IMG/VR virus record: IMGVR_UViG_3300017963_002901
Span: 1-45,534 of that record
Direction: 5' to 3' (one strand)
DNA: 45,534 nt
Source: a virus
The notes beneath the pieces were generated by a model. That model did no database searches. It saw only the letters and a program-made list of their open reading frames with translations, and was not told where the DNA came from. Positions 4,044 to 45,367 of the stretch are shown piece by piece. Positions within the stretch are counted from its first letter, which is position 1. Every line of letters begins with the position of its first letter. The translations under genes and the position numbers were made by a program.

Positions 4044-4444
4044 AAGACTTAATTAAAAAGATAAAAAAAGCTAGATTTGTCTTTGTATGTGGTAATGGTG
4101 GAAGTGCTGCAACAGCAGAGCATCTAACCAATGACCTCTTTTCAAAAGGAATAAAAGCAATCTGTCTTAATAGTAATGTTTCAATAATAACGATGATTGC
4201 AAATGACTTTGGTTATAGATATATATTTAGTGAGCAGTTAGATATTTATGCAAATAAAAGGGATCTGCTTATAACGATATCGTGTAGTGGAACTTCAAGA
4301 AACATTGTAAATGCCCTAGCAACAGCAGATTTAAAGAGAATGGAAAGATACAGCTTTGAAACCTTTAAAGGCAAAAATAGAGATTACGAAAAACTAGAAG
4401 ATAGACATATGAAAATGGTTCATGAAATTAAGAAGGCATTATGA
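4040..4444 (+). CDS. gmhA: SIS-domain sugar isomerase (GmhA-like), internally shortened
   Basis: The protein has 134 residues against roughly 190 for GmhA, the sedoheptulose-7-phosphate isomerase that starts heptose synthesis. Seen: the phosphosugar loops CGNGGSAATAEHLTNDL (about residues 17-33) and SCSGTSRNIVNAL (about 80-92), and a terminal LEDRHMKMVHEI helix like the family's last helix. The N-terminal dimerising helix and most of the strand/helix unit between the second loop and the last helix are missing. It may be a minimal isomerase or a decayed one. It lies immediately after the heptose-kinase-like gene. Confidence 0.65.
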   Translation: MKDLIKKIKKARFVFVCGNGGSAATAEHLTNDLFSKGIKAICLNSNVSIITMIANDFGYRYIFSEQLDIYANKRDLLITISCSGTSRNIVNALATADLKRMERYSFETFKGKNRDYEKLEDRHMKMVHEIKKAL

Positions 4445-5340: not shown

Positions 5341-5654
5341 GAAAAAGAATAGGAATAGACCTAGATAATACACTTTGTGAGGGTAAACATTGGAATACAC
5401 CAGAAGAAGTCCTAGAAGCTAAACCAATTCCGGAAATGGTTGAACTTGTAAACAAGTTTTGGAAAGATGATTTTGTAATTATTTATACAGCTAGGCAGAA
5501 TTTCTTAATGTCAGCTACTTTTGATTGGCTAGATAAACACAATATTAAATATCATGCAGTATCAAATAGAAAAATACCATTAGATGCAGTATTTGATGAT
5601 ACTGCTTTTCAACCAAAGAGGATGAAAACATGGAAAGACGAGAACGAGAAATAG
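5337..5654 (+). CDS. HAD-superfamily phosphatase, capsule-biosynthesis type
   Basis: This 105-residue capless HAD protein has the catalytic DxDNT motif (D8, D10 in GIDLDNTLCEG), a second-motif-like IIYTARQ, and a late acidic pair in VFDDT. The family hydrolyses phosphate esters, and small versions sit in capsule and heptose loci. Here it could remove the 7-phosphate after the GHMP kinase, the role GmhB plays elsewhere; this is inference from gene order only. It starts in the stop of the epimerase and runs 25 bases into the next gene. Confidence 0.7.
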   Translation: MRKRIGIDLDNTLCEGKHWNTPEEVLEAKPIPEMVELVNKFWKDDFVIIYTARQNFLMSATFDWLDKHNIKYHAVSNRKIPLDAVFDDTAFQPKRMKTWKDENEK

Positions 5655-5833
5655 TTTATTCCAGTTCAGTAATAAATAAGATAAGGGAAAAAGACCCTGA
5701 AATGAAAGCTATTGCTGAATTATGGGAAAGGGCATTTGAAGCTGAAGTAAAAATAGAACAAACAGAGCAAGGTGGTATAAGAGTAACACTAAAAGATGAA
5801 AGACCTATCAGTAATAATACCAGCAAGGAATGA
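5630..5833 (+). CDS. Small hypothetical protein in the sugar cassette
   Basis: This is a 67-residue, charged, probably helical protein with no motif I recognise. It overlaps the HAD phosphatase gene by 25 bases and the following glycosyltransferase by 38. This fits the compact style of the cassette but also makes a chance frame possible. There is no membrane segment or signal peptide. Confidence 0.45.
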   Translation: MERREREIVYSSSVINKIREKDPEMKAIAELWERAFEAEVKIEQTEQGGIRVTLKDERPISNNTSKE

Positions 5834-7433
5834 AGAATTCCTAGAAAGAACGATTCAAGATCTTCTTGAAAACATAGAAGCCGATACAGAGATAATAGCG
5901 GTCTTAGATGGTTATTTACCTAATCCTCCAATTGAAGTAGATGATGACAGACTTACTTTAATCTATCATCCTCAACCTGTAGGTCAAAGAGCTTCTTCTA
6001 ATGGTGCAGCAAGACTGGCTCAGGGTAAATATTTAATGAAAATAGATGCTCATTGTGCTTTTGATAAAGGCTTTGATCGTAAGATGTTAGATGCTTTCAA
6101 AGAAACTGGAGATAATGTAGCTATGGTTCCTATTATGAGGAATCTTCATGCTTTTAATTGGGTATGCCCTAAAGGTCATGAAAGGTATCAGGGCAGAAGT
6201 GGCCCATGTGAGGAGTGCGGACTTCCTACTAAGAAAGATGTTTGTTGGATTGCAAAAACTAATCCATCTAGTAAATCTTATAGATTTGATAAGACCATGC
6301 ATTTCCAGTATTGGGGAGAATTAGCAAAAAGACAAGAAGGCGATATAACAGAAACAATGTCTTTACAAGGATCTTGTTTTATGATTACAAAGGAAAAGTG
6401 GTTTGAGTTAGATATTTGTAGTGAGGAATTTAACAGTTGGGGGCAACAAGGAGTAGAAGTTGCCTGTAAGATGTGGCTTTCAGGAGGCAGAGTCTTATGC
6501 AATCAAAGAACATGGTATGCTCATATGTTCAGGACTCAAGGTGGGGATTTTGGATTTCCATATCATAATCCTCAATCTAAAGTAAATGAAAATAGAGAAC
6601 TCTCAAGGGAGCTTTTCAAGAATGATAAATGGCCTAAGGCTACTCGCAAGTTTCAATGGTTAATAGATAAGTTCAAACCTCCTGATTGGGTTATAACCAA
6701 AGGAATGATCTATTACACAGACAATAAACTAGATGAAAAGATAGCAAAACCAGTAAGAGATAACTTGGTAGATATTGGCAAAAAGAAGAAAATGGAAATA
6801 ACCTGCTCCTCACTTAGGAAGATGGAGTTTGGAGATCACAATGTCAGATTCCCTAGTCTTGAGAGGGGATATCTTGCTATGTTTAAACAGATCCTGGGAG
6901 CTTTGGAAAAGAGCAGGGATGACATTATCTTCTTTACTGAGCATGATGTGATGTATCACCCATCTCATTTTGACTTTGAACCAAAAGATAAAAAGACTTT
7001 CTATTACAATCAGAATGTTTGGTATTTGAGATTAACAGATGGGCATTGTTTACATTATGACGTTAATCAGTTGTCAGGTATGTGCGGATGGAGGGACACT
7101 TTAATTACCCATTTTAGGGAAAGGTACGAAACTGCTAGGGATGAATATGAAAAACTTGAAGGTGAAAACAAGGAAAGGGATTTTAACAGGTATGTTAGGC
7201 ATATGGGATTTGAACCATTCACTCATGGTAGGTTTAAGTGGAAAAACCAATTCAATTACGATACTTATATGTCAAAATATCCTAATGTAGATGTAAAACA
7301 TGGCAATAATCCTACAGGTGAAAGATGGAAAAAAGAACAATATAGGAATCAGCATCTTCTTATCAACTGGACTGAATCTGATGAGATTCCTGGATGGGGA
7401 AAGGGTAAAGATTTAATAAAAAGATTCAAGTAG
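5796..7433 (+). CDS. Two-domain GT-A glycosyltransferase with DxH motif
   Basis: This 545-residue protein has two domains. The N-terminal GT2-type domain (about 1-260) begins LSVIIPARNEE and has GAARLAQGKYLMKIDAHC, where D84 and H86 form a DxH metal motif. A later SLQGSCFMITKEKWF...NSWGQQGVEV...CKMWLSGG block ends in WYAHMFR. DxH and the W-G...W...GG...H-x-FR order are also landmarks of polypeptide GalNAc transferases. An insertion carries four cysteines (C124, C138, C141, C150) like a zinc ribbon. The second domain (about 330-545) has FFTEHDVMYHPSHFDF and may be another transferase. The gene closes the cassette just before the Ser-repeat proteins. Protein O-glycosylation is inferred, not shown. 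Confidence 0.75.
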   Translation: MKDLSVIIPARNEEFLERTIQDLLENIEADTEIIAVLDGYLPNPPIEVDDDRLTLIYHPQPVGQRASSNGAARLAQGKYLMKIDAHCAFDKGFDRKMLDAFKETGDNVAMVPIMRNLHAFNWVCPKGHERYQGRSGPCEECGLPTKKDVCWIAKTNPSSKSYRFDKTMHFQYWGELAKRQEGDITETMSLQGSCFMITKEKWFELDICSEEFNSWGQQGVEVACKMWLSGGRVLCNQRTWYAHMFRTQGGDFGFPYHNPQSKVNENRELSRELFKNDKWPKATRKFQWLIDKFKPPDWVITKGMIYYTDNKLDEKIAKPVRDNLVDIGKKKKMEITCSSLRKMEFGDHNVRFPSLERGYLAMFKQILGALEKSRDDIIFFTEHDVMYHPSHFDFEPKDKKTFYYNQNVWYLRLTDGHCLHYDVNQLSGMCGWRDTLITHFRERYETARDEYEKLEGENKERDFNRYVRHMGFEPFTHGRFKWKNQFNYDTYMSKYPNVDVKHGNNPTGERWKKEQYRNQHLLINWTESDEIPGWGKGKDLIKRFK

Positions 7434-7473: not shown

Positions 7474-10400
7474 ATGGCAAACGATTATTCATTGGATTTG
7501 GATCGTAGCGGTTCTGATTATGTTTATGCTGATGATTCAGCTAGTTTATCTCTTTCTGCGGATTTTACTATGGAGTGTTGGGTTAAAGTTGATTCACTTC
7601 CTTCTTCTCATCCCGACAATATGTATCTTATAAGTAAGTCTGCCTTTGATTCTGGAGTAGATGAAAGAGTTAGTTATAACTTCTATATTACTACTGCAAA
7701 TAAACTAAGATGTTCTGTTTCTGATGATGGAACTACTGATAATGGGCATTTTACACATTATTCTACAGATAATGCAGTTATCAATAATACAGGGGTATGG
7801 TATCACGTTGCGGTTACTTGTGATTTAAGTGAAGAAGATTTTAACTTTTATGTAAATGGTAGGCTTGTTGCAAGTTCTCAAACAAGTGTTTCTAATGTTG
7901 GAAACACTCTTGACGATAATAGCTCACGTTGCAATATTGGTTGTTTTAACTCAGAAATATCTGCTGATGATTTTTTAGATGGAAATATTGATGATATTAG
8001 AATATGGTCAGACGTTAGAACTGCAAGTGAGATTGAAACAAATTTTCATGTAGAGTTAGATGGTGATGAAGCAGGCCTTGTTGCTTATTGGAAATTGGAG
8101 AATGACTATACAGATGAAACAACTAATAGTAATGATTGTGATAATACTAGCGGAACTCCAACCTTTGAAACTGATCCTGCATTTAGGGAAGATAATACTT
8201 ATGCAATAGATTTTACTGCTGGAAGTTCTGAATATGCTTATGTTACTGATGCAAACCAATCAGGACTGGATCTTTCTGGTGATTTTACTCTTGAGTGTTG
8301 GGTAAACTTTGATACTTTACCTACAAGTGGAAATTATTATACTATTTTATCAAAGAGTGATGGAGATACTAATGATTCCTACCATTTTTATTATCATAAT
8401 GACTCAGGAACTTATAAATTAGGAGTAACTATTTCTCAGGATGGGTCGGGTGTAACCAGAGATGTTTATACTTGGTCTTGGACAGCAACTGCTGATACTT
8501 GGTATCACCTGGCTTTAACTTGTGATATAAGTGAGGCTTCAGCAACTACTTTTGAGTTATTTGTAAATGGATCATCACAAGGGAATGGAACAGGAGTTGT
8601 ATCTGATAATTGTGCCTCTATATATAATGGCGGTGCTGATTTTGCAGTTGGAGCTTTAGATAAAGCCACGCCTCAAAACTACTTTGATGGACTTATAGAT
8701 GAAGTCAGAGTTTGGAGTGATATAAGAACTGATAACGAGATCTCTAATAATTATAGACAAATTATTGATCAAGATTCGGCTAATTTAGTAGGTTATTGGA
8801 GATTCGAAAATAACTATGCAGATCTAACGGATAACAATAACTATTTAGTCCCAGTAAATTCACCAACATTTAGTACAGATGAACCTGAAATGGCATCAGC
8901 TAGTGCATCTCTTTCACCATCCGCATCATTATCACCATCTGCATCTTTATCGCCCTCGGCTTCATTGTCACCATCTGCATCATTATCTCCTAGTGCTTCT
9001 GAAAGTGCTAGTCCATCCCCTCCAACAGGAACTGTAGAAGTGTTGGTTGTAGCTGGTGGTGGTGGAGGTGGTGGTTCAAATACTGGCTATAATGCTGGTG
9101 GTGGTGGTGGTGGAGGGTACTTAGAAGGCAGTTTTACTGCGGTTTCAAGGGAATATACAGTAGTTGTAGGTGCTGGAGGTAGTGGTGGTGCTGCTGGTTC
9201 AAATACAGGTAGTAGTGGAGATAACTCTATATTTGATTCAGGTGGTGCAGAAGAAGCTATTGCGATTGGTGGTGGTGGTGGAGGATATGGTGCTGCTGGT
9301 GCAGGATTGGGTGATGGAGCTAGTGGTGGATCAGGTGGTGGAGGTGGAGGATCAGATGGATCTCCTTTTTCTGATGGTGGAACTGGTACTCAAGGTAATG
9401 ATGGAAGTTTAACAGGATATGGAAATGATGGAGCAGATGGTGTAGCAGGTGGAAATGGAAGTGGTGGTGGTGGTGCTGGTGGGGCTGGAGGTTCACCTGC
9501 CGGTGGTGCTGGTAGGACTAATGACATATCAGGTACTTCAGTTACTTATGCTGCTGGTGGAGATAGACAAAATAGGAGTGAAGCTGGTGCAAATGCTTCA
9601 GCTAACACAGGAGATGGTGCTGAAGGTGGATCGGAAAACAATGCAGGTGGAGATGGAGGTTCAGGTATAGTAATTTGTAGATATCTTACAAGTGAAATTT
9701 CAGCTACTGGTGGAGTAGAAACAACTGATGGTTGGTACACTATCAATACTTTTACTGCAAATGGAACATTTGAAATTACTGAAATACCTTCACCTTCTGC
9801 ATCAGAATCTGCATCAGCCTCTGCTAGTGAAAGTGCATCAGAATCACCATCAGTAAGTCCATCTGCATCTGAGTCAGCTAGTGCATCAGCATCTGAATCA
9901 CTATCTGAATCTCCATCTCTATCGCCATCGGCATCAGAATCAGCCTCTGAGTCTGCATCGGCATCTGCATCTGAGAGTCCTTCAGAATCGGCTTCTGCTT
10001 CTGCATCTGAGAGTCCAAGCGAATCTGCTTCTATATCGCCTTCTGCTTCTGCAAGTGCATCACCATCTGCATCAGAGAGTGCATCTGAATCTGCATCTGT
10101 ATCACCATCTGCTTCAGAATCAGCATCTGTTTCGCCATCTGCATCAGAAAGTGCATCAGAGTCAGCATCTGAATCTGCATCAGAGTCAGCATCTGAATCT
10201 GCATCAGAGTCGCCTTCATTATCTCCAAGTGCTTCAGAATCTGCTAGTGAGTCTGCATCAGCATCTGCATCCGAAAGCCCAAGCGAATCTGCATCGGCAT
10301 CGGCAAGTGAATCAGCTAGTGAATCTCCATCAATATCACCTTCTGCCTCAGAGAGTGCTAGTGAATCTGCTTCAGTATCTGCGTCTGAAAGTCCTTCTGA

Positions 10401-11505
10401 GTCTGCATCACTAAGCCCATCTGCATCAGCATCGGCATCAGAATCAGCATCTGAATCTCCTTCTATATCTCCATCAGCTAGTGAAAGTGCAAGTGAATCT
10501 GCATCTGCATCTGCTAGTGAATCACCTTCAGAATCTGCTTCAGTATCTCCCTCAGCTAGTGAATCTGCATCAGAATCTGCATCTGAATCTCCCTCAGAAT
10601 CTCCTTCAGAATCTGCTAGTGCTTCTGCATCTGAATCTGCATCTGAGTCTGCATCTATTTCACCATCAGCATCTGAGTCAGCAAGTGAATCAGCATCAGC
10701 ATCTGCATCTGAATCTCCATCTGAGTCAGCATCATTATCTCCAAGTGCATCAGCATCTGCATCAGCATCTGCATCTGAATCAGCATCTGAATCAGCCTCT
10801 TTAAGTCCATCGGCATCTGCATCAGCATCGGGATCAGCATCTGAAAGCCTTTCAGGAAGTCCATCACCATCATTGAGTCCTTCTGCATCGTTATCTCCAA
10901 GTGCGTCAGAAAGTGCTTCTGAAAGTGCATCAGCAAGTGCATCAGAATCGCCATCAGAATCTGCTTCAGAATCTGCATCTGTTAGTGCTTCAGAATCACC
11001 TAGTGAATCTGCCTCAGCATCTGCATCTGAATCACTATCGGCATCAGCATCTGAATCTGCCTCAGTATCTCCATCTGAAAGTGCCTCTCCAAGTGAAGGT
11101 TATACTGGTTACACAAGAGGAGATTATGCAGCTTTACCGGCAAATGATAATGACCTAGAAACAGTCTATACTCCTCAAGATATTTTAGATGTAGCAACTA
11201 ATAACAATATAAGAGTAGGTCAAACTGCTACAGGAGAATATGCAATCCATCAATATAAAAACTTTGTAGGCTCACAAGACAGTTGTCGTTTAACATGGGA
11301 AGGTCAGTCAACTCTAGCTCCATCAGCTTCGATAGTTAAGTTGCAAATATACAATCAAGTTGGTACATCTTGGGAAGATGTTGATAGCGATAACGCTACA
11401 GATGCAAATACAGACTTCTTTTTAATAGGAAACATTGGGGATTTAACTAATTATAAGTCAGGTCAAAACACTATTTCATGTAGGATTTATCAGTTAGTAA
11501 CATAA
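7474..11505 (+). CDS. Tail fibre/adhesin with two LamG domains, Gly-rich domain and Ser-repeat stalk
   Basis: This 1343-residue modular protein, in order: LamG/concanavalin-like domain 1 (about 1-215, ending [12 protein letters not shown]); LamG 2 (about 243-455, ending [12 protein letters not shown]); a short Ser-Pro-Ser-Ala linker (about 473-514); a glycine-rich domain (about 519-740) starting [14 protein letters not shown] with repeated VGAGGSGG-type turns, of the kind seen in phage tail tips; a long Ser-x dipeptide array (about 772-1207); and a C-terminal beta-rich domain of about 137 residues. LamG folds bind carbohydrates or proteins, so host-surface binding is likely. It is the first gene after the glycosylation cassette and probably opens the tail operon. 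Confidence 0.75.
8890..9015 (+). repeat. Short Ser-Pro-Ser-Ala linker array
   Basis: This codes for about 42 residues of SPSAS-x units joining the second LamG domain to the glycine-rich domain. Serine occupies every second position. Confidence 0.85.
9787..11096 (+). repeat. Ser-x dipeptide repeat, LamG adhesin
   Basis: About 436 residues in which Ser alternates with Ala, Glu, Pro, and some Leu, Ile, Val or Gly. Ser is encoded by a mixture of TCA, TCT, TCG, AGT and AGC, so the DNA is far less repetitive than the protein. Many long open frames on other frames and strands here are by-products of this composition. Confidence 0.95.
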
Positions 11506-11506
11506 T

Positions 11507-14500
11507 ATGGCAGATATAGGTAGAACAACAGTAGGAACAAATACAATAGGAACAAATTTGCCCCAAACAAGTATTTTTACGGCAGATGAAACTTTTAATG
11601 CAGTAAGGATAACTGTTTATCTTGCTGGAAGTTCTGATAATTTTTGTTGTGCAATATACGATGACAAAAATGGAAGTCCTGAATCGTTATTAGTTCAAAG
11701 TAGCAGTAAAGCTTACAATGGAACTCCTGGATGGTGGTCAGTTTCAATATCAAGTACAACAATAACAAATGGAAATGATTACCATTTAGGTTGCTGGACA
11801 CAAAATGGAAACGCTGATTATAAGTGTGATGGAGCAGATGATATTGATAGAAAAACTGGTGAAACATACTCCACTTGGCCTGCTAAGTTTAATGAAAATT
11901 CAGGTGCAGGCAATGGCCCTTTCAGCATCTATGCAGATGATACACCTGTAGGATCTGAATCGCCTTCTGCATCGGCATCAGCATCTGCAAGTGAATCACC
12001 ATCGGTAAGTCCTTCTGCTTCAGCATCAGCATCTGCTAGTGCCTCAATATCTCCATCAGCTTCTGAATCGGCATCTTTATCGCCTAGTGCATCAGCTTCT
12101 GCTTCTGAATCTGCAAGTGAATCAGCATCTTTATCTCCTAGTGCTTCAGCTTCTGCATCGGCATCTGCTTCGGCTTCGGCATCAGAATCGGCATCTGAAT
12201 CTGCATCGATATCGCCATCTGCTTCTGAATCTGCATCTGCATCTGCATCTGAATCTGCATCATTATCACCATCAGCATCAGAAAGTGCTTCTGAGTCTGC
12301 ATCAGCTTCAGCTTCGGAATCAGCATCTGAAAGTGCTAGCATATCACCATCAGCATCAGCTTCTGCATCTGCATCTGCAAGTGCTTCGGCATCAGAATCG
12401 GCATCTGAAAGTGCTTCGATATCTCCAAGTGCATCAGCATCAGCATCAGCTAGTGCTTCTGAATCAGCATCTTTATCTCCTTCTGCATCTGAATCTGCAT
12501 CGGCATCTGCTTCGGCTTCAGCTTCGGAATCAGCGTCAGAATCGGCTTCTATAAGCCCTAGTGCCTCAGAATCTGCAAGTGAATCTGCATCAGAATCAGC
12601 AAGTGAATCAGCTAGCGAATCAGCTTCTATATCTCCATCAGCTAGTGAATCAGCTTCTGCGTCAGCATCAGCATCAGCTTCTGAGTCTGCATCTGAATCT
12701 GCATCTATTAGCCCTTCTGCCTCTGAAAGTGCAAGTGCATCAGCCTCAGCTTCTGCATCTGCATCTGCATCAGAGTCAGCATCTATCAGTCCATCAGCCT
12801 CAGCATCTGCATCTGAATCAGCTAGTGAATCAGCTTCTATAAGCCCAAGTGCATCAGCTTCTGCTTCAGAATCAGCTTCTGAATCAGCATCTCCAAGTGA
12901 GTCAGAAGAAGTTTCTGAAAGTGCTTCGGCATCTGCCTCTGAATCAGCATCAGCATCTGCATCAATATCTCCATCTGCATCAGCCTCTGCTAGTGAAAGT
13001 GCATCTGAATCTGCTTCAATTTCTCCTTCAGCATCTGAATCAGCTTCGGCATCAGCATCAGCTTCTGCTTCAGAATCAGCCTCTGAATCAGCTTCAATAA
13101 GTCCATCAGCATCTGAATCTGCAAGTGAATCTGCAAGTGCCTCAGCTTCAGAATCTGCATCTGAATCTGCATCGGTATCGCCTAGTGCATCTGAATCTGC
13201 CTCAGCATCTGCATCGGCTTCAGCTTCTGCATCAGCATCAGAATCTGCATCTATTAGTCCTAGTGCATCAGAATCAGCATCTGAATCTCCTTCTATATCT
13301 CCATCTGAATCAGCATCAGAAAGTGCTTCGGTATCTCCTTCAGCATCTGAATCTGCCTCAGTATCTGCTTCAGCATCAGCAAGTGAATCAGCTAGTGAAT
13401 CGGCTTCAATTAGTCCATCAGCTAGTGAAAGTGCATCAGCTAGTGCTAGTGCCTCGGCTTCTGCATCGGCATCTGAATCAGCATCGGTATCGCCATCTGC
13501 ATCTGAATCAGCCTCTGAATCTGCATCAGAATCAGCATCGGAATCTGCTTCAGAATCTGCATCTGTATCACCATCTGCAAGTGAATCGGCTAGTGAATCT
13601 GCCTCAGCTTCTGCATCTGAAAGTCCATCAGAAAGTGCATCTATCTCCCCATCACCTAGTGCATCAGCATCTGAATCTGCTTCTGAAAGTGCAAGTCCTT
13701 CATTGAGTGAAGCTGAAGAAGAAACTCTATCAACTGATCTTTGGAATGTTAGCTTTGTATCTGAATCACCTTCTGCTTCTGCTTCAGAATCTGCATCTGA
13801 ATCGCCATCTGTAAGTCCTAGTGCAAGTGAATCTGCATCTGCTTCTGCATCTGCAAGTCCATCTGAATCTCCGTCTGAATCGGCATCTGCATCTGCTAGT
13901 GCCTCGCCATCGGAAAGTGCCTCAGCTTCTGCATCTGAGAGTCCATCAGAAAGTGCATCTGTTTCACCATCTGCATCTGAAAGTGCATCTTTATCACCAT
14001 CGGCTTCTGCTTCAGCATCTGAATCTGAATCAGAATCACCATCAGAAAGCCCATCAGCTTCAGCTTCTGAATCAGCATCAGAAAGTGCATCAGCATCAGC
14101 ATCAGAAAGCCCATCTGAATCTGCTTCAGCATCGCCATCAGAAAGCCCATCTGAATCTGCATCAATATCTCCTAGTGCATCTGAATCAGCATCTGAAAGT
14201 GCATCTGCATCAGCTAGTGAATCGCCTAGTGAATCAGCTTCAGCATCAGCTTCTGAAAGTCCATCTGAAAGTGCATCGGTAAGCCCATCACCATCAGAAT
14301 CTGCATCTGAATCAGCCTCAGCATCTGCAAGTGAATCACCATCTGAAAGTGCATCTTTATCTCCTTCTCCATCAGAATCTGCATCTGTAAGTCCTTCTCC
14401 ATCTGAATCAGCTAGTGAAAGTGCATCTGCTTCTGCTTCAGAATCACCATCTGAATCGGCAAGTGTATCGTTATCACCTTCACCATCTGCCTCTGCTAGT

Positions 14501-15040
14501 GCTTCTGCATCAGCATCAGAATCAGCATCTGTTTCGCCATCTGCCTCTGCATCAGCCTCTGAAAGTGCATCGGCATCAGCCTCTGCATCAGCTTCTATAT
14601 CACCATCGGCATCTGCATCAGCATCAGCTTCTGCAAGTGCATCAGCATCTGCTTCTGCAAGTGCATCAGCGTCCGCTTCAGCAAGTGAATCGGCAAGTGC
14701 TTCTGCATCTGCTTCAGCATCGGCATCAGCATCAGGATCACCATCAGCTAGTGAAAGTGCATCTTTATCACCATCACCTTCACCATCAGAATCTGCATCT
14801 GAATCAGCCTCAGCATCTGCATCTGCATCTGCATCAGAGTCCCCATCGTTATCACCTTCTGCTTCTGCATCACCATCTATAAGTCCTAGTGCTTCGCCAT
14901 CACCTGCTAGTTATTCAAATAAATATGAAGATACTGGAAATACTTGGACTGATAAATATACAGATACAGGAAATACCTATCAAGACAAATACACCGATAC
15001 CGGAAATCTATGGATTGATAAATATAAAGATTGGGGCTAA
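11507..15040 (+). CDS. Giant Ser-repeat fibre protein
   Basis: This 1177-residue protein has a beta-rich N-terminal domain (about 1-148). It is followed by about 985 residues of Ser-x repeats broken twice by acidic inserts (SESEEVSES near residue 465; [18 protein letters not shown] near 735). The protein ends in a compact tail of four about 11-residue units of the form KYxDTGNxWxD, finishing KYKDWG. This is a stalk-with-cap plan: the N-terminal domain probably attaches or binds, and the repeat spaces and may be glycosylated. Serine-rich repeat adhesins of Gram-positive bacteria are the best-known analogy, but no homology is claimed. It starts one base after the previous stop. Confidence 0.75.
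11954..14914 (+). repeat. Ser-x dipeptide repeat, giant fibre
   Basis: About 987 residues, the longest array in the genome. It falls into three blocks separated by the acidic inserts near 12885-12925 and 13690-13765. The sub-motif [13 protein letters not shown] recurs with varied codons. Confidence 0.95.
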
Positions 15041-15076: not shown

Positions 15077-16675
15077 ATGCCAGTATTAGAAAACAAAGAA
15101 TTTGCAGGAGGTATAAGTTCATTCGCTGATCGTGGAGTTAGAGGAGCTTTTAAATTTGGCAGCAATTTAGATATCAGAAAAGAAGTTGATACCCTAAGTT
15201 GTGGACAGGATTTATTAGAAGAAGGAACTTTTGGTGGCACACATTCAGTATCAGCATCAGTATCACCTTCTGCTTCTTATTCTCCTAGTGCTAGTGCTTC
15301 GCCTTCAGTAAGTCCTAGCGGTGGATCGGCATCTTTATCACCATCTGCTTCTACATCAGCATCTGCTTCTCCTAGCCAATCCCCTTCAGGATCTGCAAGT
15401 CCATCAGGATCAGCAAGTGCTTCACCTTCCCCATCAGCAGGACTTTATAATGTTTATGAAGATTTAGTCCTTTTTTGGGTAAAAGCAACTGATGGTAATA
15501 CTTATGGTTTTGGTAATGGAGGCCACATTTACAGGAGATATTCAGATGGCTATACAAGGATGGTTTATACAGATACCTACGGAGGCATAAGAGGAGCAGT
15601 AGAGAAGCCATCAAGCTCAGGCAAAACGTATCTTCAATGGGCAACTGCAACCAGGATTATGAGAAAAGAGCTTCCAGGGGCATCAAACTGGACAGATGTT
15701 GAAACTGTAGCAGCAAACCTCACAGGGTCAGATTGGCATACAATGAAACAAATTGGTGGAGCAAATATGATCTGTAATGGATCTTATCTAGCTATGGTAG
15801 GTTATGATGATTCCTGGACAAATGAAGCTCTAGATTTAATTCCTGGTAATCTTTCAAAAACTTTACTTGAAAGGAATGGTAGAGCAGTTGTAGGAACTTA
15901 TAAGGCAGGCTTTCCTAATAAAGGGGTAAATGCCATGATCGATTGTGAAGTACCTCTAGCACAAATTGGGGATGATGGGGATCTTTACTTTAGCAACTTT
16001 ACAGATTCAATGCCTGTTAAAAGATTCCCCGGTGGAGGTAGAGTAAACCCAGGAGGAGTAGCAAATGAAGTTGAACAAGTACAGATTTTTGATTGGGAGC
16101 AAACAGCCCTTTCGTGGATCGATAAACAGACTCTAGGAAATATGTCTTTATGGGGAGTATTTGATGCAGATACTGGAAGGAATGGTGTTTACACCTATGG
16201 TAGGGAAAATAAGGAACAATTATTTACTTTAAATCTTGAATACTTACTGGAAGTAGATGAAATAGGAGCAGTCGCAAATGTAGAGGGGACAACAATAATA
16301 AGTTATAGGGATGGATCAGACTACGGAGTAAAAGCAGTTGACCCTGATAACAAAGCACAAGGTATATGGGAAGGCTTAGAATTCAGATCTCCAGTTAAAA
16401 GACCTGAAAGACCTACAATTTATAAATATGTTGAAGTATTTATGGAACCTCTACCTCTTGGTGCAAGTGTATCATTCTATTACAAAGCCAATAAGACAGG
16501 TGGTTGGGTTCAGGCTAGACTAGCCAATGGCAATTTAAATTACACAGTAGCCAATGGTAAAAAAGCCACTTTCAGGATTGGTAGAGAAATGGAAGTTTAT
16601 GAACCAAGACTTGTTTTAAATCCAACAGGAAATTCAAGCCCTGAGATTTTAAGAATTAGAACTTACTTTGATTAA
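15077..16675 (+). CDS. Beta-propeller-like tail protein with Ser-repeat segment
   Basis: This 532-residue protein has an N-terminal segment (about 1-55) including FADRGVRGAFKFG, a short Ser-x stretch (about 56-121), then about 400 residues rich in short beta strands and aromatic/Gly turns. The latter resembles the propeller-like structural proteins of phage tails. The C-terminus (PRLVLNP...PEILRIRTYFD) is typical of such proteins. It is probably a tail hub or nozzle component, but I cannot assign an exact position. It sits with other tail genes and ends against the next ATG. Confidence 0.6.
   Translation: MPVLENKEFAGGISSFADRGVRGAFKFGSNLDIRKEVDTLSCGQDLLEEGTFGGTHSVSASVSPSASYSPSASASPSVSPSGGSASLSPSASTSASASPSQSPSGSASPSGSASASPSPSAGLYNVYEDLVLFWVKATDGNTYGFGNGGHIYRRYSDGYTRMVYTDTYGGIRGAVEKPSSSGKTYLQWATATRIMRKELPGASNWTDVETVAANLTGSDWHTMKQIGGANMICNGSYLAMVGYDDSWTNEALDLIPGNLSKTLLERNGRAVVGTYKAGFPNKGVNAMIDCEVPLAQIGDDGDLYFSNFTDSMPVKRFPGGGRVNPGGVANEVEQVQIFDWEQTALSWIDKQTLGNMSLWGVFDADTGRNGVYTYGRENKEQLFTLNLEYLLEVDEIGAVANVEGTTIISYRDGSDYGVKAVDPDNKAQGIWEGLEFRSPVKRPERPTIYKYVEVFMEPLPLGASVSFYYKANKTGGWVQARLANGNLNYTVANGKKATFRIGREMEVYEPRLVLNPTGNSSPEILRIRTYFD
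15244..15440 (+). repeat. Ser-x repeat segment in tail protein
   Basis: About 65 residues of SxSx units with extra Pro, Gly, Tyr and Thr. This is the shortest and least regular array, inserted between the N-terminal segment and the propeller-like part. Confidence 0.85.
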
Positions 16676-38700: not shown

Positions 38701-39804
38701 ATGGCAGCATACGGAACAAAATTAGCAGAAGCTTTCTCTCAAAAGGTCATGAAAGAACTTTATGACCGAACTTTAGTTGATGCAATAGTCAACAGAGATT
38801 ATGAAGGCGAGATCAATGCAGTAGGTTCAAAGTTGAATATGCTTAACTTTGACAGGCTTTCAGAAAAAACTTACGCAGATGCAGCCCTTACCGCAGACTC
38901 CTTAACTGAAAATAACTCAATTTTGACCATTGATCAGTATAAATCCTTCTACTGGAAGGAAAAGACCCTTCACAAATGGCTATCTTATATTAAAAACCCT
39001 CATCCAACCATCGTTGATCAGGTTGCAAACGAGAGGGCAAAGAATATGGAAACTTTTGTTCTAGGACTTTACGCAGACGTAGGATCCGGAAACAGGGATG
39101 GAACTGATTACACCACAGGAACTGTTACTATAAATGCAGCCGGAACAGTTACTGGAGCAGGTACTACTTTTACCGCAGCGATGGTAGGTAAAGGATTCAA
39201 AGCCGATGGTCATTCAGTTTGGTACAGGGTAGCAACTTACACCAACCCAACCACAATTACAATTGAGGATGACTTAGATGATGTAAGCTCAACTTACTCC
39301 GGTGGAGCAATTGGTGGAGGTTCAACTTATACAATTGAAGCAGCAACAGTTAAGACGATTACTACAGCTAACTTGCTCTCAAGTGTCGCAGCCTTGAAAG
39401 AAAAGTTAGACAAAACAGAACAATATGCATTGAACGCAGTACCAGATTCAGACAGGTGGCTAGTAGTCCCTCCTGAATTTGAAACCATCTTAGTTCAGGG
39501 TACAGGAATTGCCCTTCATGTACCGGCAGTTTATGAAGAATTAGTAAAAAGAGGATTTATTACAGAACTGCAAGGATTCAAGGTATTTAAGTCTAACCGA
39601 CTAAGTGGTAATAACACAGACGGATACCATGTACTTGCAGGACATCCACAATGGATGACTTTCGCAGAGAAAGTATTAGATGCAAGAATTGAAGAAGATC
39701 TGATTGGTGATTTCGGAGCAGCATACAAAGACTTATTCGTGTACGGAGCAAAGGTAAACGATGCTCGCAGAAACTTCGCAGCAGAAGGTTTCTGGAAGTT
39801 CTAA
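38701..39804 (+). CDS. Major capsid protein (P22-like HK97 fold)
   Basis: The protein has 367 residues. The opening (AFSQKVMKELYDRTLVDAIV), the NMLNFDRLSEKTY block, the SFYWKEKTLHKWLSY and FVLGLYADVG segments, and the C-terminal LFVYGAKVNDARRNFAAEGF match P22 coat-like capsid proteins. An inserted beta module of about 80 residues (about 137-218; TGTVTINAAGTVTGAGTTF onward) sits in the middle, comparable to surface-exposed insertion domains. A strong promoter before it and a terminator after it fit the highest expression in the genome. Confidence 0.85.
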   Translation: MAAYGTKLAEAFSQKVMKELYDRTLVDAIVNRDYEGEINAVGSKLNMLNFDRLSEKTYADAALTADSLTENNSILTIDQYKSFYWKEKTLHKWLSYIKNPHPTIVDQVANERAKNMETFVLGLYADVGSGNRDGTDYTTGTVTINAAGTVTGAGTTFTAAMVGKGFKADGHSVWYRVATYTNPTTITIEDDLDDVSSTYSGGAIGGGSTYTIEAATVKTITTANLLSSVAALKEKLDKTEQYALNAVPDSDRWLVVPPEFETILVQGTGIALHVPAVYEELVKRGFITELQGFKVFKSNRLSGNNTDGYHVLAGHPQWMTFAEKVLDARIEEDLIGDFGAAYKDLFVYGAKVNDARRNFAAEGFWKF

Positions 39805-40026: not shown

Positions 40027-41040
40027 ATGGCAACATTTGAACTAAAAGAAGATTTACCAAGAACAACTCAAGACGAAATTGATCGAATTGAGGCAATTGA
40101 TAGTGATAAAAGGTCAGACAAAGAAAATGACTTTTTAACTGCTTTGGCTCCATATAGAACCAATGTTGTTCTAAGATGGGTAACTGAAGCCTATGTAATG
40201 CCCCAAAATACATTAAGGCACGCATCAGGTGATGAAATCTTGGAAGCAATAGGTGAAACAGTCCCCACAGCTTACTCAGGATTTTATCAAGGTGCTACCT
40301 TTTATCAGTTAAATAAGTCCGGAATTAACGTATATACTAATATCGGGGATTCTACTACTGCTATTTGGGCATTAAACACAGAAGGTGGATCACCATCAGC
40401 AAGTGCATCTCTTTCACCATCTGCATCTGCATCACCATCAGCATCAGTTTCAGCCTCTGCCTCAGCATCTGCTTCTGCTTCAGTATCAGCATCAGCATCT
40501 GAGTCTGCATCAGTTTCAGCATCTGCATCAGCATCTGAGTCTGCATCATCAAGTCCATCACCATCTGCATCTGCCTCAGCTAGTGCATCAGTTTCACCAT
40601 CAGCTTCAGGATCTGCTAGTGCATCAGCATCTGTTTCGCCTTCTGCATCAGGATCAGCATCTGCATCTGCATCAGTTAGCCCATCAGCTTCTGAATCAGC
40701 AAGTGCAAGTGCTTCAGTTTCGCCTTCTGCATCTGAGTCAGCAAGTGCTAGTGCATCAGTCAGTCCATCCGAATCGGCATCAGTTTCAGCCTCTGCATCT
40801 GCATCTGCAAGTGCATCTGAATCGCCATCGGCATCAGCATCAATTTCACCATCTGAATCAAGATCACCTAGCCCATCAGCATCAACATCACCTAGCCCTA
40901 GTGCATCACTTAGCCCATCAGGTTCTGCATCACCATCAGCCTCTGCATCTGCATCGGCTAGTGCATCTTACAGCCCATCAGCATCTTTGAGTCCATCAGC
41001 AAGTCCAAGCCCATCAAGTTCAGAGTCGTTCCCACCATAA
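40027..41040 (+). CDS. Ser-repeat head-fibre/decoration protein candidate
   Basis: The protein has 337 residues. Residues 1-120 form a mixed helix/beta domain with [23 protein letters not shown]-type strands, a plausible capsid anchor. Residues 121-335 are Ser-x dipeptide repeats ending SSSESFPP. Genes just after the major capsid gene usually encode decoration proteins or head fibres, so this probably projects a Ser-rich stalk from the head. AAAGGA precedes the ATG. Confidence 0.6.
40388..41031 (+). repeat. Ser-x dipeptide repeat, head-fibre candidate
   Basis: About 215 residues with Ser at every other position, richer in Val and Pro and poorer in Glu than the tail arrays. Codons for Ser are again mixed TCN and AGY. 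Confidence 0.95.
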
Positions 41041-41041
41041 A

Positions 41042-41341
41042 ATGTATAACGCATATAGCACAATTGTAACTGGAGAGGTACAAGGAGGCACAGCAGCAGT
41101 CCAAATGCCCGATATTCCTTGTGCCATGATCAAGATAAAAGCATTATCAAATAATGCCGGGAATGTATATCTTGGTTCTAGCTCCTCTATGACCAGGGCA
41201 GGAACAACTACAAATACTACAATGGGATACGAACTGGATGCAGGGCAGGAAACAGATTGGCTTCCAATAGATAACCTCAACAAATTATGGATGAGGACTG
41301 ACAACAATGCAGATGATGTTTGCTACATAGCCTTCAGGTAA
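41042..41341 (+). CDS. Small head/decoration protein
   Basis: The protein has 99 residues. It is a beta-rich single domain (IKIKALSNNAGNVYLGSSSS, YELDAGQETDWLPIDNLNKLWM, DDVCYIAF) of the kind often found beside capsid or fibre genes. No signal or membrane segment. It starts one base after the fibre stop. Confidence 0.55.
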   Translation: MYNAYSTIVTGEVQGGTAAVQMPDIPCAMIKIKALSNNAGNVYLGSSSSMTRAGTTTNTTMGYELDAGQETDWLPIDNLNKLWMRTDNNADDVCYIAFR

Positions 41342-41358
41342 ACTCTTGACACATGATG

Positions 41359-41364
41359 TATAAT
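41359..41364 (+). promoter_or_regulatory. Possible -10 element, leaderless geometry
   Basis: TATAAT is exactly six bases before the ATG at 41371. A TTGACA at 41346-41351 is only seven bases upstream of it, too close to serve as its -35, so the promoter is doubtful. Confidence 0.35.
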
Positions 41365-41370
41365 TGATGT

Positions 41371-41535
41371 ATGCACAGATTAAGTGTATATATCACCAAA
41401 GCTCAATTCGATTTCCTCAAAAATGTAAATGAAACTCCTGTAGCAGAACATATCCGTATAGCTTTAAGCGACTATATAAAGAAACTCAAAAACGAAAGAG
41501 TAAGTGAATCGCAATCAAAGAGAGAAGGTGAGTAA
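41371..41535 (+). CDS. Ribbon-helix-helix protein
   Basis: This 54-residue protein opens with a short strand (RLSVYITKAQFDFL), then a helix and a second helix (AEHIRIALSDYIKKLKNE), the CopG/Arc-type RHH layout. Such dimers bind operators. Being next to the anti-defence candidate and the sugar cassette, it may repress this operon. Confidence 0.6.
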   Translation: MHRLSVYITKAQFDFLKNVNETPVAEHIRIALSDYIKKLKNERVSESQSKREGE

Positions 41536-41536
41536 G

Positions 41537-41794
41537 ATGCCAGCAGTAACACCAATAATTAAAGATGAAGTTAAAAAAAGTGGTGGAGGAAAAATTACAA
41601 TGGATTTTCCGGGAGCCATAAAAGCAATTATTAGAGGGAAAAAGGTAACTAGACTAGAATGGCCTAAAGAAGATCATGGCCTCTTAAAAGATGGATGGTT
41701 AATGATCTATACCAAAGGTCAATACTTTACATGGAAAGTAAATGATGGAGATCTGAAATCAAACGATTGGGTAATTTATAAGGAGAAAAATTAA
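41537..41794 (+). CDS. DUF2829 / Tad2-like protein (anti-defence candidate)
   Basis: The protein has 85 residues. MDFPGAIKAIIRGKKVTRLEW, then WLMIYTKGQYFTW and a closing LKSNDWVIY match the small DUF2829 fold. Family members named Tad2 block the Thoeris system by sequestering its nucleotide signal, and some bind other cyclic nucleotides. Which signal, if any, this copy binds cannot be read from sequence. AAGGTGAG precedes the ATG; a frame from GTG 41504 is longer but less likely. Confidence 0.7.
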   Translation: MPAVTPIIKDEVKKSGGGKITMDFPGAIKAIIRGKKVTRLEWPKEDHGLLKDGWLMIYTKGQYFTWKVNDGDLKSNDWVIYKEKN

Positions 41795-42685
41795 ATGGAT
41801 TTATCAGTTTTAATACCAAACAGGAACAGTCCGTTCCTAAACAATACAATAGAAGATATTTTAAGTAAGGCAGTTACTGATATAGAAGTAGTTGTAAATA
41901 TAGATGAGAACTGGCCTGAAACAATTTATGATGATGAGAGAGTCCACTATATTCATCCTCCACATCCTAGAGGATTAAGATATGGAATCAATGCTTGTGC
42001 AAGACTAGCACAGGGAAAACATATCATGAAAATAGATGATCATTGTATGGTTGATGAAGGTTTTGATAAGGTCTTAATAGAAAACCATGAAGATAATTGG
42101 GTACAAATTCCAAGACGTTATGCCTTAGATGCAGAAAACTGGAAAATAGAAGAAAGAGAAGATAACAAATACCCTATTGATTATATGTATATAGACTTTC
42201 CAAGAAAAGGAAAAGCCCATGATGACGGGATGCATGGAGTTCCCTGGAAACAAAGACGAGAAGAACGCAAGGAAATTCAAATAGACGATACCCCAAGTTT
42301 GCAGGGATCTTGCTATTTTATGAGCAGGAGCTATTTCTTTGATTTCTTGGGTGAAATGAGTGAAGAAGGTTATGGCCAATTCTCTCAGGAAGCCCAAGAG
42401 ATCGGCTTCAAGACATGGCTTGGAGGTAACAGAATGGTAGTAAACAAGAAAACCTGGTATGCACACCTTTATAAAGGTAAAAGATATGGAAGAATGTATA
42501 ATGTTCCGGGTTTTAACAAATATACCAAAGAAGCTTCAGAATGGAGTGCAGAGCATTGGTTAAATGACAGAGAACCAGGAATGAAGCACAAGTTTGAATG
42601 GTTTATAGATGAGAAGTTTCCAAATATGCCCTCTTGGCCTAAAAACTGGAAAGAGGAGCTTAGAAAGATGGGTTGGTATGGCTAA
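41795..42685 (+). CDS. GT-A glycosyltransferase with DxH motif, copy 1
   Basis: The protein has 296 residues. LSVLIPNRNSPF opens a GT2-type nucleotide-sugar domain. D81 and H83 in KIDDHC are the metal motif. SLQGSCYFMSRSYFF and the E-x-GFKTWLGG...WYAHLY block match the 5796 and 42678 proteins. It lacks the second domain of the 5796 protein. It probably adds a sugar to the same glycan or to protein serines. It starts right after the Tad2-like stop. Confidence 0.75.
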   Translation: MDLSVLIPNRNSPFLNNTIEDILSKAVTDIEVVVNIDENWPETIYDDERVHYIHPPHPRGLRYGINACARLAQGKHIMKIDDHCMVDEGFDKVLIENHEDNWVQIPRRYALDAENWKIEEREDNKYPIDYMYIDFPRKGKAHDDGMHGVPWKQRREERKEIQIDDTPSLQGSCYFMSRSYFFDFLGEMSEEGYGQFSQEAQEIGFKTWLGGNRMVVNKKTWYAHLYKGKRYGRMYNVPGFNKYTKEASEWSAEHWLNDREPGMKHKFEWFIDEKFPNMPSWPKNWKEELRKMGWYG

Positions 42686-43586
42686 AGTATCAGTAATAAT
42701 ACCGGCAAGAGGTGAAAGATTAGAAAACCTCAATAGAACTTTGGAATCAGTTTATAAAAATGCTACAGGCGACTTTGAAGTCATTGTAGGATTTGATGAC
42801 AAATTTGATTTTTCTTTAGCTGATGTCTTTGGTTTGGATCAAAAAAACTTTAGCTATATTAGATTTCCTGGATTAGTTGGTATAAAAACTAACATAAATG
42901 CTATGGCTTCTATGGCAAAAGGTGAATATCTTTTTAAGTTAGATGCTCATTGTTCAGTAGGAAAAGGCTTTGATGAGATTCTACAGGCAACTATGAAGAA
43001 AGATTGGCTTGTTATGCCTAGATTTTATGTTTTAAATGGTGAAACCTGGGAATGGCAAAAAAGAAAAGGGATTGGAGAATATTATGACTACTTTTTCCTC
43101 TGCTGCCCCTTCACAGATCCTAGAGGATTCAGATTTAAAGCAGGCGGTCATTGGAGAGAGAGAACAGTAGATAAACTAGAAACACCGCTAGACGAAACTC
43201 CTCAAATTCATGGATCGGGATGGTTTATTACAAGAGATCGATACTTTCAACTAGGAGGATTCCCCAATATTGATCCTCATGGACACGCACAAGAGCCAAT
43301 ATGGCTTGCCCTAAAGAACTGGTTGATGGGAGGTAAAGTAATGGTGAATAAAAAAACTTGGTATGCACATATGCACCAGCAAGGAAATAGACGAGGTTAT
43401 CATATGGACAGGAATCAAGAAAAAATAAGTTACGACTTAGCAGCAAAATTCTTTGTAGGTGATGAATGGTTCCAGGGGAAACAGCATACTTTTGAATGGT
43501 TTGTAGATAAATTTATGCCAATGCCAACATGGCCTGATGACTGGAAGGATCTTTTATATCAATGGAGGGCTGAAAATGTCATTTAG
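42678..43586 (+). CDS. GT-A glycosyltransferase with DxH motif, copy 2
   Basis: The protein has 302 residues. It opens KVSVIIPARGER, has D89 and H91 in KLDAHC, QIHGSGWFITRDRYFQLGG, then PIWLALKNWLMGG and WYAHMH. The ATG 42678 puts the conserved IIPA strand at the very N-terminus; an upstream in-frame start at 42609 is inside the previous gene. It overlaps both neighbours. A paralogue of the two other DxH transferases. Confidence 0.75.
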   Translation: MAKVSVIIPARGERLENLNRTLESVYKNATGDFEVIVGFDDKFDFSLADVFGLDQKNFSYIRFPGLVGIKTNINAMASMAKGEYLFKLDAHCSVGKGFDEILQATMKKDWLVMPRFYVLNGETWEWQKRKGIGEYYDYFFLCCPFTDPRGFRFKAGGHWRERTVDKLETPLDETPQIHGSGWFITRDRYFQLGGFPNIDPHGHAQEPIWLALKNWLMGGKVMVNKKTWYAHMHQQGNRRGYHMDRNQEKISYDLAAKFFVGDEWFQGKQHTFEWFVDKFMPMPTWPDDWKDLLYQWRAENVI

Positions 43587-44253
43587 AACTAATAAATCAA
43601 TTTTTTATCATATTCCTAGAACTGGTGGGACATTTGTAAAAAATGCCACTAGACAGGCTTTAACTAACATTGAAGGCAGTTATGGTAGAAGTAGAGGTGA
43701 TTATGAAGTAGAAAAAAATGAAACAGAGTATTGGAGATTCTTTTTGGCTCATGTTTTACAGCTTAAAAGAGAGCATAGAACTCAATGGGAAGTAAGTAAA
43801 GAGGACAGAAACCTATTTTCTTTTGCTTTTGTCAGAGAACCCTTTAGTTGGTATAAGTCTTTTTGGGCTTTTCGTGAAAGGGCAAATAGGAATAACAATA
43901 ACTGGAGGCCGGGTTTTCCTTTAGATTTTGCATGGGATCCAGATTTTGAGAAGTTTATAAAGAATTCTTTAACAATGTTTCCTAATTTTGTAACAATTCT
44001 CTACCAATGTTATCTAGGAAAAGATGGAAATGACCTAGATTTTGTAGGAAAACAGGAAAGTCTAAGAGAAGATCTTATAAAGGCACTTACACTAGCAGGT
44101 GAAGATTTCAGCAAAAACTTAATAAGAAGCAAAAAAAGGTTCAATTTAGGAGCTTCTCAAAGAGGGTTGAATTACTCATTTGATATCGGAAGCAAACTCG
44201 AAAGAAGAATAAGAATTAGAGAAAAATGGGTTTATCAAACATTCTATAAATAA
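43576..44253 (+). CDS. Sulfotransferase-family protein, copy 2
   Basis: The protein has 225 residues. PAPS loop HIPRTGGT (12-19) and FAFVREPFSWYKSFW are visible, and it aligns block by block with the copy at 1084. GGAGGG at 43565-43570 sets the ATG at 43576. The two copies flank the methyltransferase/acetyltransferase set on the circular map, as if a block had been duplicated. Glycan sulfation is inferred. Confidence 0.75.
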   Translation: MSFRTNKSIFYHIPRTGGTFVKNATRQALTNIEGSYGRSRGDYEVEKNETEYWRFFLAHVLQLKREHRTQWEVSKEDRNLFSFAFVREPFSWYKSFWAFRERANRNNNNWRPGFPLDFAWDPDFEKFIKNSLTMFPNFVTILYQCYLGKDGNDLDFVGKQESLREDLIKALTLAGEDFSKNLIRSKKRFNLGASQRGLNYSFDIGSKLERRIRIREKWVYQTFYK

Positions 44254-44762
44254 TGGCAAAACAAATGAACATATCTTTAGCCTATGGCACACACCTACCA
44301 TGCCTTATAAAGGCGTTGTCTAAGACCACAGGGGACATTCTAGAGCTTGGAACAGGTGTTTTTAGTACACCATATCTCCGATATCAATGTATGCTCGCAG
44401 ATCGCCTTCTAGTAAGCTACGAGAATTATCGTGAATGGTATGATTTTATGTTGAAATACTGGACTTCTAATAAAAACCATCAAATCAATTTCATTGAAAA
44501 GTATTCAGATGCCCCAATCCAAAAGGAATGGGACGTTGTTTTAATAGATCAAACACCAGATGTAAGCAGATCAGAAGAAGCCATGAGGTTAAAAGACTTA
44601 GCGAAATATATTGTTATCCATGATTCTAATCCAAGTAACCATAGAGTTACTCATTATGACAAGATATACCCTTACTTTAAATATAAAATTGATTGGACTG
44701 GCGACAAAAACAGATCTACTGTAATATCAAATTTAGTTGACTTAAAAGATTTTTGGAAATGA
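44253..44762 (+). CDS. SAM methyltransferase-like protein
   Basis: The protein has 169 residues. Motif I is GDILELGTGVFSTPYL, then VSYENY (acidic strand 2) and WDVVLIDQTP, a Rossmann methyltransferase order. Unlike the next two genes it is not of Methyltransf_24 type. It could methylate the glycan or another cassette product. One-base overlap with the sulfotransferase stop, ATGA overlap with the next gene. Confidence 0.6.
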   Translation: MAKQMNISLAYGTHLPCLIKALSKTTGDILELGTGVFSTPYLRYQCMLADRLLVSYENYREWYDFMLKYWTSNKNHQINFIEKYSDAPIQKEWDVVLIDQTPDVSRSEEAMRLKDLAKYIVIHDSNPSNHRVTHYDKIYPYFKYKIDWTGDKNRSTVISNLVDLKDFWK

Positions 44763-45367
44763 ATACACTAGATTACATCTTAAAAAAGTATAACATTGAT
44801 CCCAATGCTGAGTCCCCTATTAAGTGGCCTTATAGAAGAACTGAATTGGCTAAACTATTTCATGAGTTAGGGTTTAAAACAGGAGCTGAAATTGGTGTAG
44901 ATCGTGGAATGTACTCACAAATCCTTTCTGAAGCAAATCCTGGAGTAAAACTCTACTGCATAGATCCCTGGAAGGTATATAACCAATATGATGATATCAA
45001 AGATGTAAGAAGGATAAACATGAATTATAGCCATACAGTAAGACTATTAGAACCTTACAATTGTGAAATAATTAAAAAATCCAGTATGAACGCAATAAAA
45101 GACTTTAAACCTGAAAGCCTAGACTTTGTTTATATAGATGGAAACCATAGATACGAGTATGTTTTAGAGGATGTTAGGGCATGGTCAAAGATAGTTAGGA
45201 AAGGTGGAATCGTTAGCGGACACGATTACAAAGCAAGAAGCAGAAAATACAAGAATCCTAATCCTGGAGTGGGTAAAGCACTAGATCAATACATGGCAGA
45301 GAACAAAATAGATAAATTCTTTTGGATGATTAAGGCAAATGACTCTAGTTGGTTTTTTGTAAAATGA
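44759..45367 (+). CDS. Class I SAM methyltransferase (Methyltransf_24), copy 1 of tandem pair
   Basis: The protein has 202 residues. GAEIGVDRGMYSQIL is motif I, followed by YCIDPWKVY, FVYIDGNHRYEYV and GGIVSGHDYKA. The ATG at 44759 sits in the previous stop (ATGA). The next gene, across the origin, is its tandem paralogue. The pair may methylate two positions of the same sugar chain; this is inference. Confidence 0.8.
   Translation: MNTLDYILKKYNIDPNAESPIKWPYRRTELAKLFHELGFKTGAEIGVDRGMYSQILSEANPGVKLYCIDPWKVYNQYDDIKDVRRINMNYSHTVRLLEPYNCEIIKKSSMNAIKDFKPESLDFVYIDGNHRYEYVLEDVRAWSKIVRKGGIVSGHDYKARSRKYKNPNPGVGKALDQYMAENKIDKFFWMIKANDSSWFFVK

Follow-up and report, generated by a model that had tools for sequence, protein, structure and literature searches.

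The locus considered here consists of two small, adjacent open reading frames (ORFs) located between the head genes and a sugar cassette of a virus, and it raises the question of whether the two genes serve in counter-defence and, if so, against which immune signal of which host. The window analysed comprises the whole of an IMG/VR record for a virus; it is 45,534 bases long and has a direct terminal repeat of 123 bp at its ends, and the virus genome is therefore probably complete.

Organization of the Locus

The features of the locus, each with the evidence for it or its bearing on the locus, are as follows:

38701..39804, + strand: major capsid protein (PHROG 267); left side of the slot and anchor for finding relatives
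41042..41341, + strand: 99-aa protein with no assigned function; often precedes the cassette in close relatives
41346..41370, + strand: putative promoter/operator of the cassette (sequence, TTGAC conservation in relatives and repeat shuffling)
41371..41535, + strand: 54-aa ribbon-helix-helix (RHH) protein, ATG start (profile, model and relatives)
41537..41794, + strand: 85-aa Tad2-like (PF11195) protein, ATG start (Pfam, model and alignment)
41795..42685, + strand: family 2 glycosyltransferase; directly 3' of the Tad2-like gene and right edge of the slot

The two ORFs at 41371-41794 are separated by a single base, in agreement with the initial annotation. The ATG of the Tad2-like gene at 41537 has GAAGGTGAG in front of it, and its stop codon abuts the start of the glycosyltransferase gene at 41795. 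A GTG start at 41504, which belongs to the longer ORF given by the ORF-finding tool, is disfavoured because the relatives align to the start of the 85-aa form with its xTP motif. Upstream of the RHH and Tad2-like genes are those for the capsid protein, an S-A-S repeat protein and the 99-aa protein. Given that the 99-aa protein also occurs without the RHH-Tad2 pair, it is considered to be outside the pair.

Family and Fold of the Tad2-Like Protein

The 85-aa protein matched the Tad2-like family PF11195, formerly named DUF2829, with an E-value of 1.2e-7 and a score of 32.6 bits, which is above the cut-off of 25. PF11195 was also matched at E ≤ 0.01 by all 39 aligned sequences (i.e., the window protein and 38 sequences from other viruses), and 25 of the 49 searched records were over the cut-off. 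A sequence profile reached the solved Tad2 entries in the PDB, while a PDB search with the single sequence gave no real match. The searches of NCBIfam and PADLOC with this protein gave no match either, and a tblastn search of isolate phages gave only one match, a weak one, to Salmonella phage Arash.

An AlphaFold model built from the 39 sequences had pLDDT values of >90 across the Tad2 domain, and it superposed on SPO1 Tad2, ModTad2, SptTad2 and AcrIIA7/HgmTad2 with Z-scores of 10-11.5 and rmsd of 1.2-1.5 Å over 60-65 residues, compared to a Z-score of only 5.1 for the best non-Tad2 entry in the structure comparison. A match to chain S of the phage 812 neck (8qkh; Z 5.1, rmsd 3.9) was weak and judged uninformative. 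In the predicted domain layout, a flexible N-terminal tail of ~20 residues with an xTP motif is followed by a minimal Tad2 domain at residues 22-82. The xTP motif (LTPxP) is found in 32 of the 39 clade members and has no counterpart in SPO1 Tad2 or ModTad2. With the Pfam match, the fold match and the profiles in agreement, the DUF2829/Tad2-like naming proposed initially is retained, and the assignment of the protein to PF11195 with a Tad2 fold is solid at the level of sequence and predicted structure.

The RHH Protein

As a single sequence, the 54-aa protein stays below the Pfam cut-offs (RHH_3, E = 0.026), but a profile of 23 sequences matched the solved RHH proteins 2k9i (ORF56, E = 7e-4) and 2q2k (E = 1.5e-3). 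Its model (pLDDT 82) places helices correctly at residues 10-18 and 24-50, and the structures nearest to it are those of the ParD2 RHH antitoxin, with a weak Z-score of 4.8. By profile and model, the protein is an RHH (MetJ/Arc) protein, which is clear only with the profile of its relatives, and these results support the previous placement of an RHH gene ahead of the Tad2-like gene. The protein ends with a C-terminal tail of the pattern VSxSxSK (mostly written here as VSASxSK), of which two serines are invariant among the aligned relatives.

Linkage and Distribution of the Two Genes

Relatives were gathered from IMG/VR via the glycosyltransferase and the capsid protein, and the counted set comprised 70 loci or contigs covering the region from the capsid gene to the glycosyltransferase gene. 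A Tad2-like gene was present in 49 of these loci: 37 copies were in the same slot and 12 were elsewhere, either after glycosyltransferase genes or in the early region. Directly upstream of the Tad2-like gene, an RHH gene was found in 41 of the 49 loci (all 37 slot copies and four of the 12 displaced ones), and eight loci had the Tad2-like gene without an RHH gene. Profile detection found no RHH gene in any of the 21 loci that lacked a Tad2-like gene. The Fisher p-value for this association is ~1e-11, although the sequences are related and a few contigs overlap, so that the counts are not independent.

In the relatives without the Tad2-like gene, the site is closed up or holds either a gene similar to that of the 99-aa protein or an HNH ORF. 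The presence of the cassette is patchy on the capsid tree, and at least 6 to 9 changes are needed to account for its absence. Given the linkage in the loci and the patchy presence on the capsid tree, the RHH and Tad2-like genes are an accessory two-gene cassette that was gained or lost repeatedly. Presence and absence among relatives also bear out the suggestion that the slot between the head genes and the glycosyltransferase cassette is an accessory one.

We noticed that in three relatives (L036:4278, L101:7905 and L015:3891) the RHH sequence appears as the C-terminal part of an HNH-like protein and that the slot of a fourth is occupied by an HNH-like ORF (L103:8639-9160). Thus, homing-endonuclease mobility may have helped to move the cassette.

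The Promoter of the Cassette

The conserved promoter emerged only from a comparison of the relatives: 28 of the 29 RHH starts have TTGAC in the 50 bp before them, as against 2.3% of the 87 starts of neighbouring genes in these loci. The position of the box is mostly -34 to -40 (about -37) relative to the RHH start. A TAnnnT box lies 15-19 nt beyond TTGAC and near the ATG in 18 of 28 relatives; the RHH mRNA would thus be leaderless or nearly so. The promoter travels with the displaced cassettes of L049 and L097, and the Tad2-like copies without RHH in L041 and L104 have a TTGACA...TAAGAT promoter of their own.

In the window, TTGACA (41346-41351) and TATAAT (41359-41364) are separated by a spacer of 7 nt, compared to about 17-18 nt in the relatives, which is shorter by approximately one helical turn. 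This short spacer is the reason why a consensus promoter scan of the window found none at the cassette, and it makes the strength of the promoter in this virus uncertain. The cassette promoter of the window may be weak or broken, and its activity is doubtful; an RHH mRNA made from it would be leaderless.

The direct repeat TGATGTAT occurs twice at 41354-41372 of the window with a period of 11 bp (p = 0.007 by shuffling), and no inverted repeats were found in the cassette region of the window. Several members have repeats that run into the -10 region, examples being ATTCATACAATGTATGAAT (L048) and TGATGTATAATTGATGTAT (window). At p < 0.05, direct repeats were found in 8 and inverted repeats in 4 of the 29 RHH promoters, which is suggestive only, as the members are related. 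Autoregulation by the RHH protein through such operator repeats is likewise only suggested by these sequences.

Host Lineage and Its Signal-Based Immunity

A contig of a Candidatus Woesebacteria metagenome-assembled genome contains a 17.9-kb stretch with a capsid gene of 70% identity; this contig (21,821 bases) appears to be the same as one of the virus contigs (L017) and is therefore not independent evidence. In the same phylum, genome G418 encodes portal and capsid proteins with 47 and 40% identity, respectively, within a 149-kb contig. An apparent prophage is situated at about 31-67 kb of contig G418:C1 (L117/L118/L123), where a serine-recombinase-like ORF adjoins a tRNA-Glu gene. It is beside chromosomal genes that, by eye, we take to encode IMP dehydrogenase, SecD/F, Lon, lysyl-tRNA synthetase, FtsE/X and release factor 2. 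In a third genome (G459), a 33-kb contig has the full order of capsid protein, repeat protein, 99-aa protein, RHH protein, Tad2-like protein and glycosyltransferase. Given the capsid and portal relatives in Patescibacteria genomes and the apparent integrated prophage, the virus lineage very probably infects Patescibacteria, which are ultra-small bacteria. The host, which the initial annotation had given as unknown, is hence linked to this phylum for the lineage, and we infer the same for this particular virus.

Of 192 Patescibacteria genomes, 4 encode ThsB-TIR and 9 encode CD-NTase, while STALD (ThsA SLOG) reached the cut-off in none. Two of these loci were examined: in one, the TIR gene is beside the gene for a membrane protein of the candidate system PDC-M50, and in the other, the cyclase (CD-NTase) gene is beside that for a NucC effector. 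A sponge would have targets in the inferred host phylum, albeit infrequent ones.

The Binding Site and the Candidate Ligand

SPO1 Tad2 (gp34.65; ligand gcADPR; 8sme, 8smf and 8wje) shares with the window protein the family PF11195, the fold (Z 11.2-11.5) and the W, D and DW residues of the C-terminal half. ModTad2 (Myroides odoratus prophage anti-Thoeris 2; 9eib and 8v3e), a hisADPR sponge against type II Thoeris (PMC13299392), superposes with Z 10.7-10.8 and is 29% identical over 62-63 residues. HgmTad2, which is also AcrIIA7 (8kbi-8kbm), and SptTad2 (8wjd) share the fold (Z 10-10.9). In contrast to SPO1 Tad2, the window protein has ~24 fewer residues between β2 and β3, EWPKEDH in place of GWNGK, an additional N-terminal tail and an RHH partner gene. 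It also lacks both the β2-β3 stretch and the GWNGK of ModTad2, as well as the long cyclic dinucleotide (CDN)-binding insertion of HgmTad2/AcrIIA7 and SptTad2. The 60-aa protein A0A2K9VAK2 of Klebsiella phage KpS110 is alike in having a minimal domain without the insertion (TM-score of 0.88 over the target), and short phage Tad2-like proteins of this kind are also without assigned function. The papers that we read report neither ligand binding nor phage rescue by Tad2-like proteins that lack the insertion.

These differences are those of the clade. The insertion of ~24 residues between β2 and β3 is missing in all 39 sequences, and the 61 residues of the minimal domain align with 85 of SPO1 Tad2, the shortfall being the β2-β3 stretch. 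The GWNGK loop (β1-β2) that is common to the four solved sponges is found in none of the 39 sequences and is replaced by xWxNxDY or similar, that is, a tryptophan and, a few residues later, an acidic and an aromatic one in most cases. Residues W42, W66, D72, D77 and W78 of the window protein align with W25, W73, D79, D84 and W85 of SPO1 Tad2, and the last four of these align without gaps, so that the tryptophan of β4, the aspartate of the loop and the Asp-Trp of α3 are kept.

The gcADPR pocket of Tad2 consists of the β1-β2 loop, which lines it on both sides, the β3-β4 loop, β4, the β4-α3 loop and α3, whereas HgmTad2 binds CDNs via an insertion between β2 and β5 (PMC12043709). The ligand-contact regions were assigned here as the secondary-structure elements given in this review rather than residue by residue. 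At this level, the comparison with Tad2 ligand pockets that had been proposed as a check agrees for the fold and the C-terminal W, D and DW positions but not for the GWNGK loop and the CDN insertion. Since the replacement loop has a loose conserved pattern of its own, the sequences argue for a binding site that is maintained but different over one that has decayed. The changed β1-β2 loop predicts a specificity unlike that of the four solved sponges. Because the insertion and the GWNGK loop are both gone, the ligand is not readable from the sequence, and the earlier suggestion that the protein could reveal the immune signal of the host is not sustained; what stands of the earlier interpretation is the family, the fold, the RHH gene in front and the accessory slot. 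Given that the CDN insertion is gone while the β4/loop/α3 half of the ADPR pocket is kept, an ADP-ribose-type signal is the likelier guess for the ligand than a CBASS dinucleotide.

A Possible Counter-Defence Cassette

By analogy with the solved proteins, the Tad2-like protein is best read as a divergent, minimal Tad2-type sponge. We consider it somewhat better than an even chance that the two genes form a self-promoted counter-defence cassette of such a sponge and an RHH autoregulator, that is, a "moron"-type accessory cassette in a lineage of tailed viruses with a link to Patescibacteria. The RHH protein would act as an autorepressor, keeping expression in check by binding where repeats overlap the -10 box of the promoter. 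The Tad2-like protein would assemble, presumably as a tetramer with pockets between its protomers like the solved Tad2 proteins, and sequester a nucleotide immune signal as a stoichiometric sponge, such that the abortive-infection effector of the host would not be triggered. An ADP-ribose-type signal, such as a TIR (Thoeris-like) system would produce, is likelier as its ligand than a CBASS dinucleotide. Such an arrangement would resemble that of the Aca autorepressors, which are small DNA-binding proteins co-cistronic with an anti-defence gene; the promoter repeats, suggestive as they are, would be a further likeness. As described in PMC9410906, however, the Aca families are HTH proteins typically encoded after the acr gene, while the regulator of this cassette is an RHH protein by profile and model and comes first; it corresponds to none of the Aca families described there.

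Several results are against the sponge reading. The GWNGK loop is absent from the whole clade although the β1-β2 loop lines the gcADPR pocket, the insertion is missing, STALD reached its cut-off in none of the 192 genomes, and the 7-nt spacer in the window may leave the cassette with a weak or broken promoter. A pure sponge model also does not account for the conserved flexible tails of the two proteins (VSASxSK of the RHH protein and xTP in 32 of the 39 Tad2-like proteins).

A less probable explanation, but one of some weight, is that the Tad2 fold serves another role here, for example in the virion or its assembly, with expression alongside the head genes, or in host takeover. The adjoining capsid genes and the loss of the known ligand loop are consistent with such a role, and the conserved N-terminal tail suggests a protein partner. 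Tad2-like domains also occur in many phage proteins of unassigned role, including versions of 60-75 aa and domains inside larger proteins. A structural part, however, fits poorly with the patchy presence and the varied genomic positions of the gene in otherwise collinear relatives, and the promoter of the cassette separates it from the late genes.

It is improbable that the protein resembles HgmTad2 in being a CDN-binding sponge against CBASS. Its fold is similar to those of the HgmTad2 and SptTad2-cGG structures, and CD-NTases occur in nine genomes of the inferred host phylum, one of them encoded beside a NucC-like effector. With the CDN-binding insertion of HgmTad2 (PMC12043709) missing and the GWNGK loop absent throughout the clade, CBASS inhibition by this known route is nevertheless unlikely. 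Even SPO1 Tad2, which bears an insertion, does not bind 3'3'-cGAMP (PMC11722364).

We regard as slightly more doubtful still the idea that the RHH and Tad2-like proteins are physical partners in a signal-sensing switch. The RHH tail VSASxSK would dock on the Tad2-like protein, and a host alarm nucleotide would free it. This ligand-dependent release would raise the activity of the cassette's own promoter, which would make the Tad2-like protein an inducible, self-titrating sponge for a ligand unlike those of known Tad2 proteins.

A type II toxin-antitoxin pair, with an RHH antitoxin followed by a small toxin, is very unlikely. The gene order, the similarity of the RHH fold to ParD, the conserved C-terminal tail and the promoter with overlapping repeats in several members are all in its favour, but the eight loci with a Tad2-like gene and no RHH gene are not, and the Tad2-like protein has neither the fold nor an active site of a toxin; the Tad2 family consists of binding proteins. 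An anti-CRISPR role like that of AcrIIA7, which belongs to PF11195 as HgmTad2 does, can nearly be dismissed: AcrIIA7 carries DUF2829 and has Aca neighbours at 7.3% of its homologues in RefSeq (PMC6739104), and apo-AcrIIA7 (8kbi) matches at Z 10.8, but its chain is the protein deposited as HgmTad2 with cADPR and cGG (8kbj and 8kbk), and the window protein is without the AcrIIA7/HgmTad2 insertion.

Whichever role applies, the locus goes beyond another Tad2 in its minimal clade with a different loop, the pairing with an RHH gene, the portable promoter and the link to Patescibacteria. The clade adds minimal Tad2-like proteins from viruses linked to Patescibacteria, in which the phage-host conflict is poorly known. 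If the protein is a sponge, its altered loop would be a direct handle on the signal used by these hosts, and the RHH-promoter signature could be used to find other counter-defence genes in the same viruses.

Other Features of the Window

Promoters of the form TTGACA-N16-18-TACAATnGTAAC(A)ATG, or near to it, are found in the window at 27969, 29856, 31271, 32107, 37150 and 37516. In these promoters the start codon comes almost directly after the -10 box, and their shared form suggests leaderless transcripts and an operator-like GTAAC motif in common. The mechanically called ORF starts of two of them, 29856 and 32107, probably mark -35 boxes instead.

The sugar cassette spans the terminal repeat (28-7433 and 41795-45364 of the window) and is unusually large for a 45-kb virus. 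By eye, its contents are presumably glycosyltransferases and sulfotransferase-like, methyltransferase-like, kinase-like and sugar epimerase-like proteins.

Ser-Ala/Glu/Pro repeats (e.g., SASASES and SPSAS) are found in the four proteins encoded at 7474-11505, 11507-15040, 15077-16675 and 40027-41040, and the serine-rich repeats are very long in the first two of these. The repeat protein encoded at 40027 is found in most relatives with a conserved N-terminus. The tail VSASxSK of the RHH protein resembles the S-A-S repeats of these proteins of the same virus.
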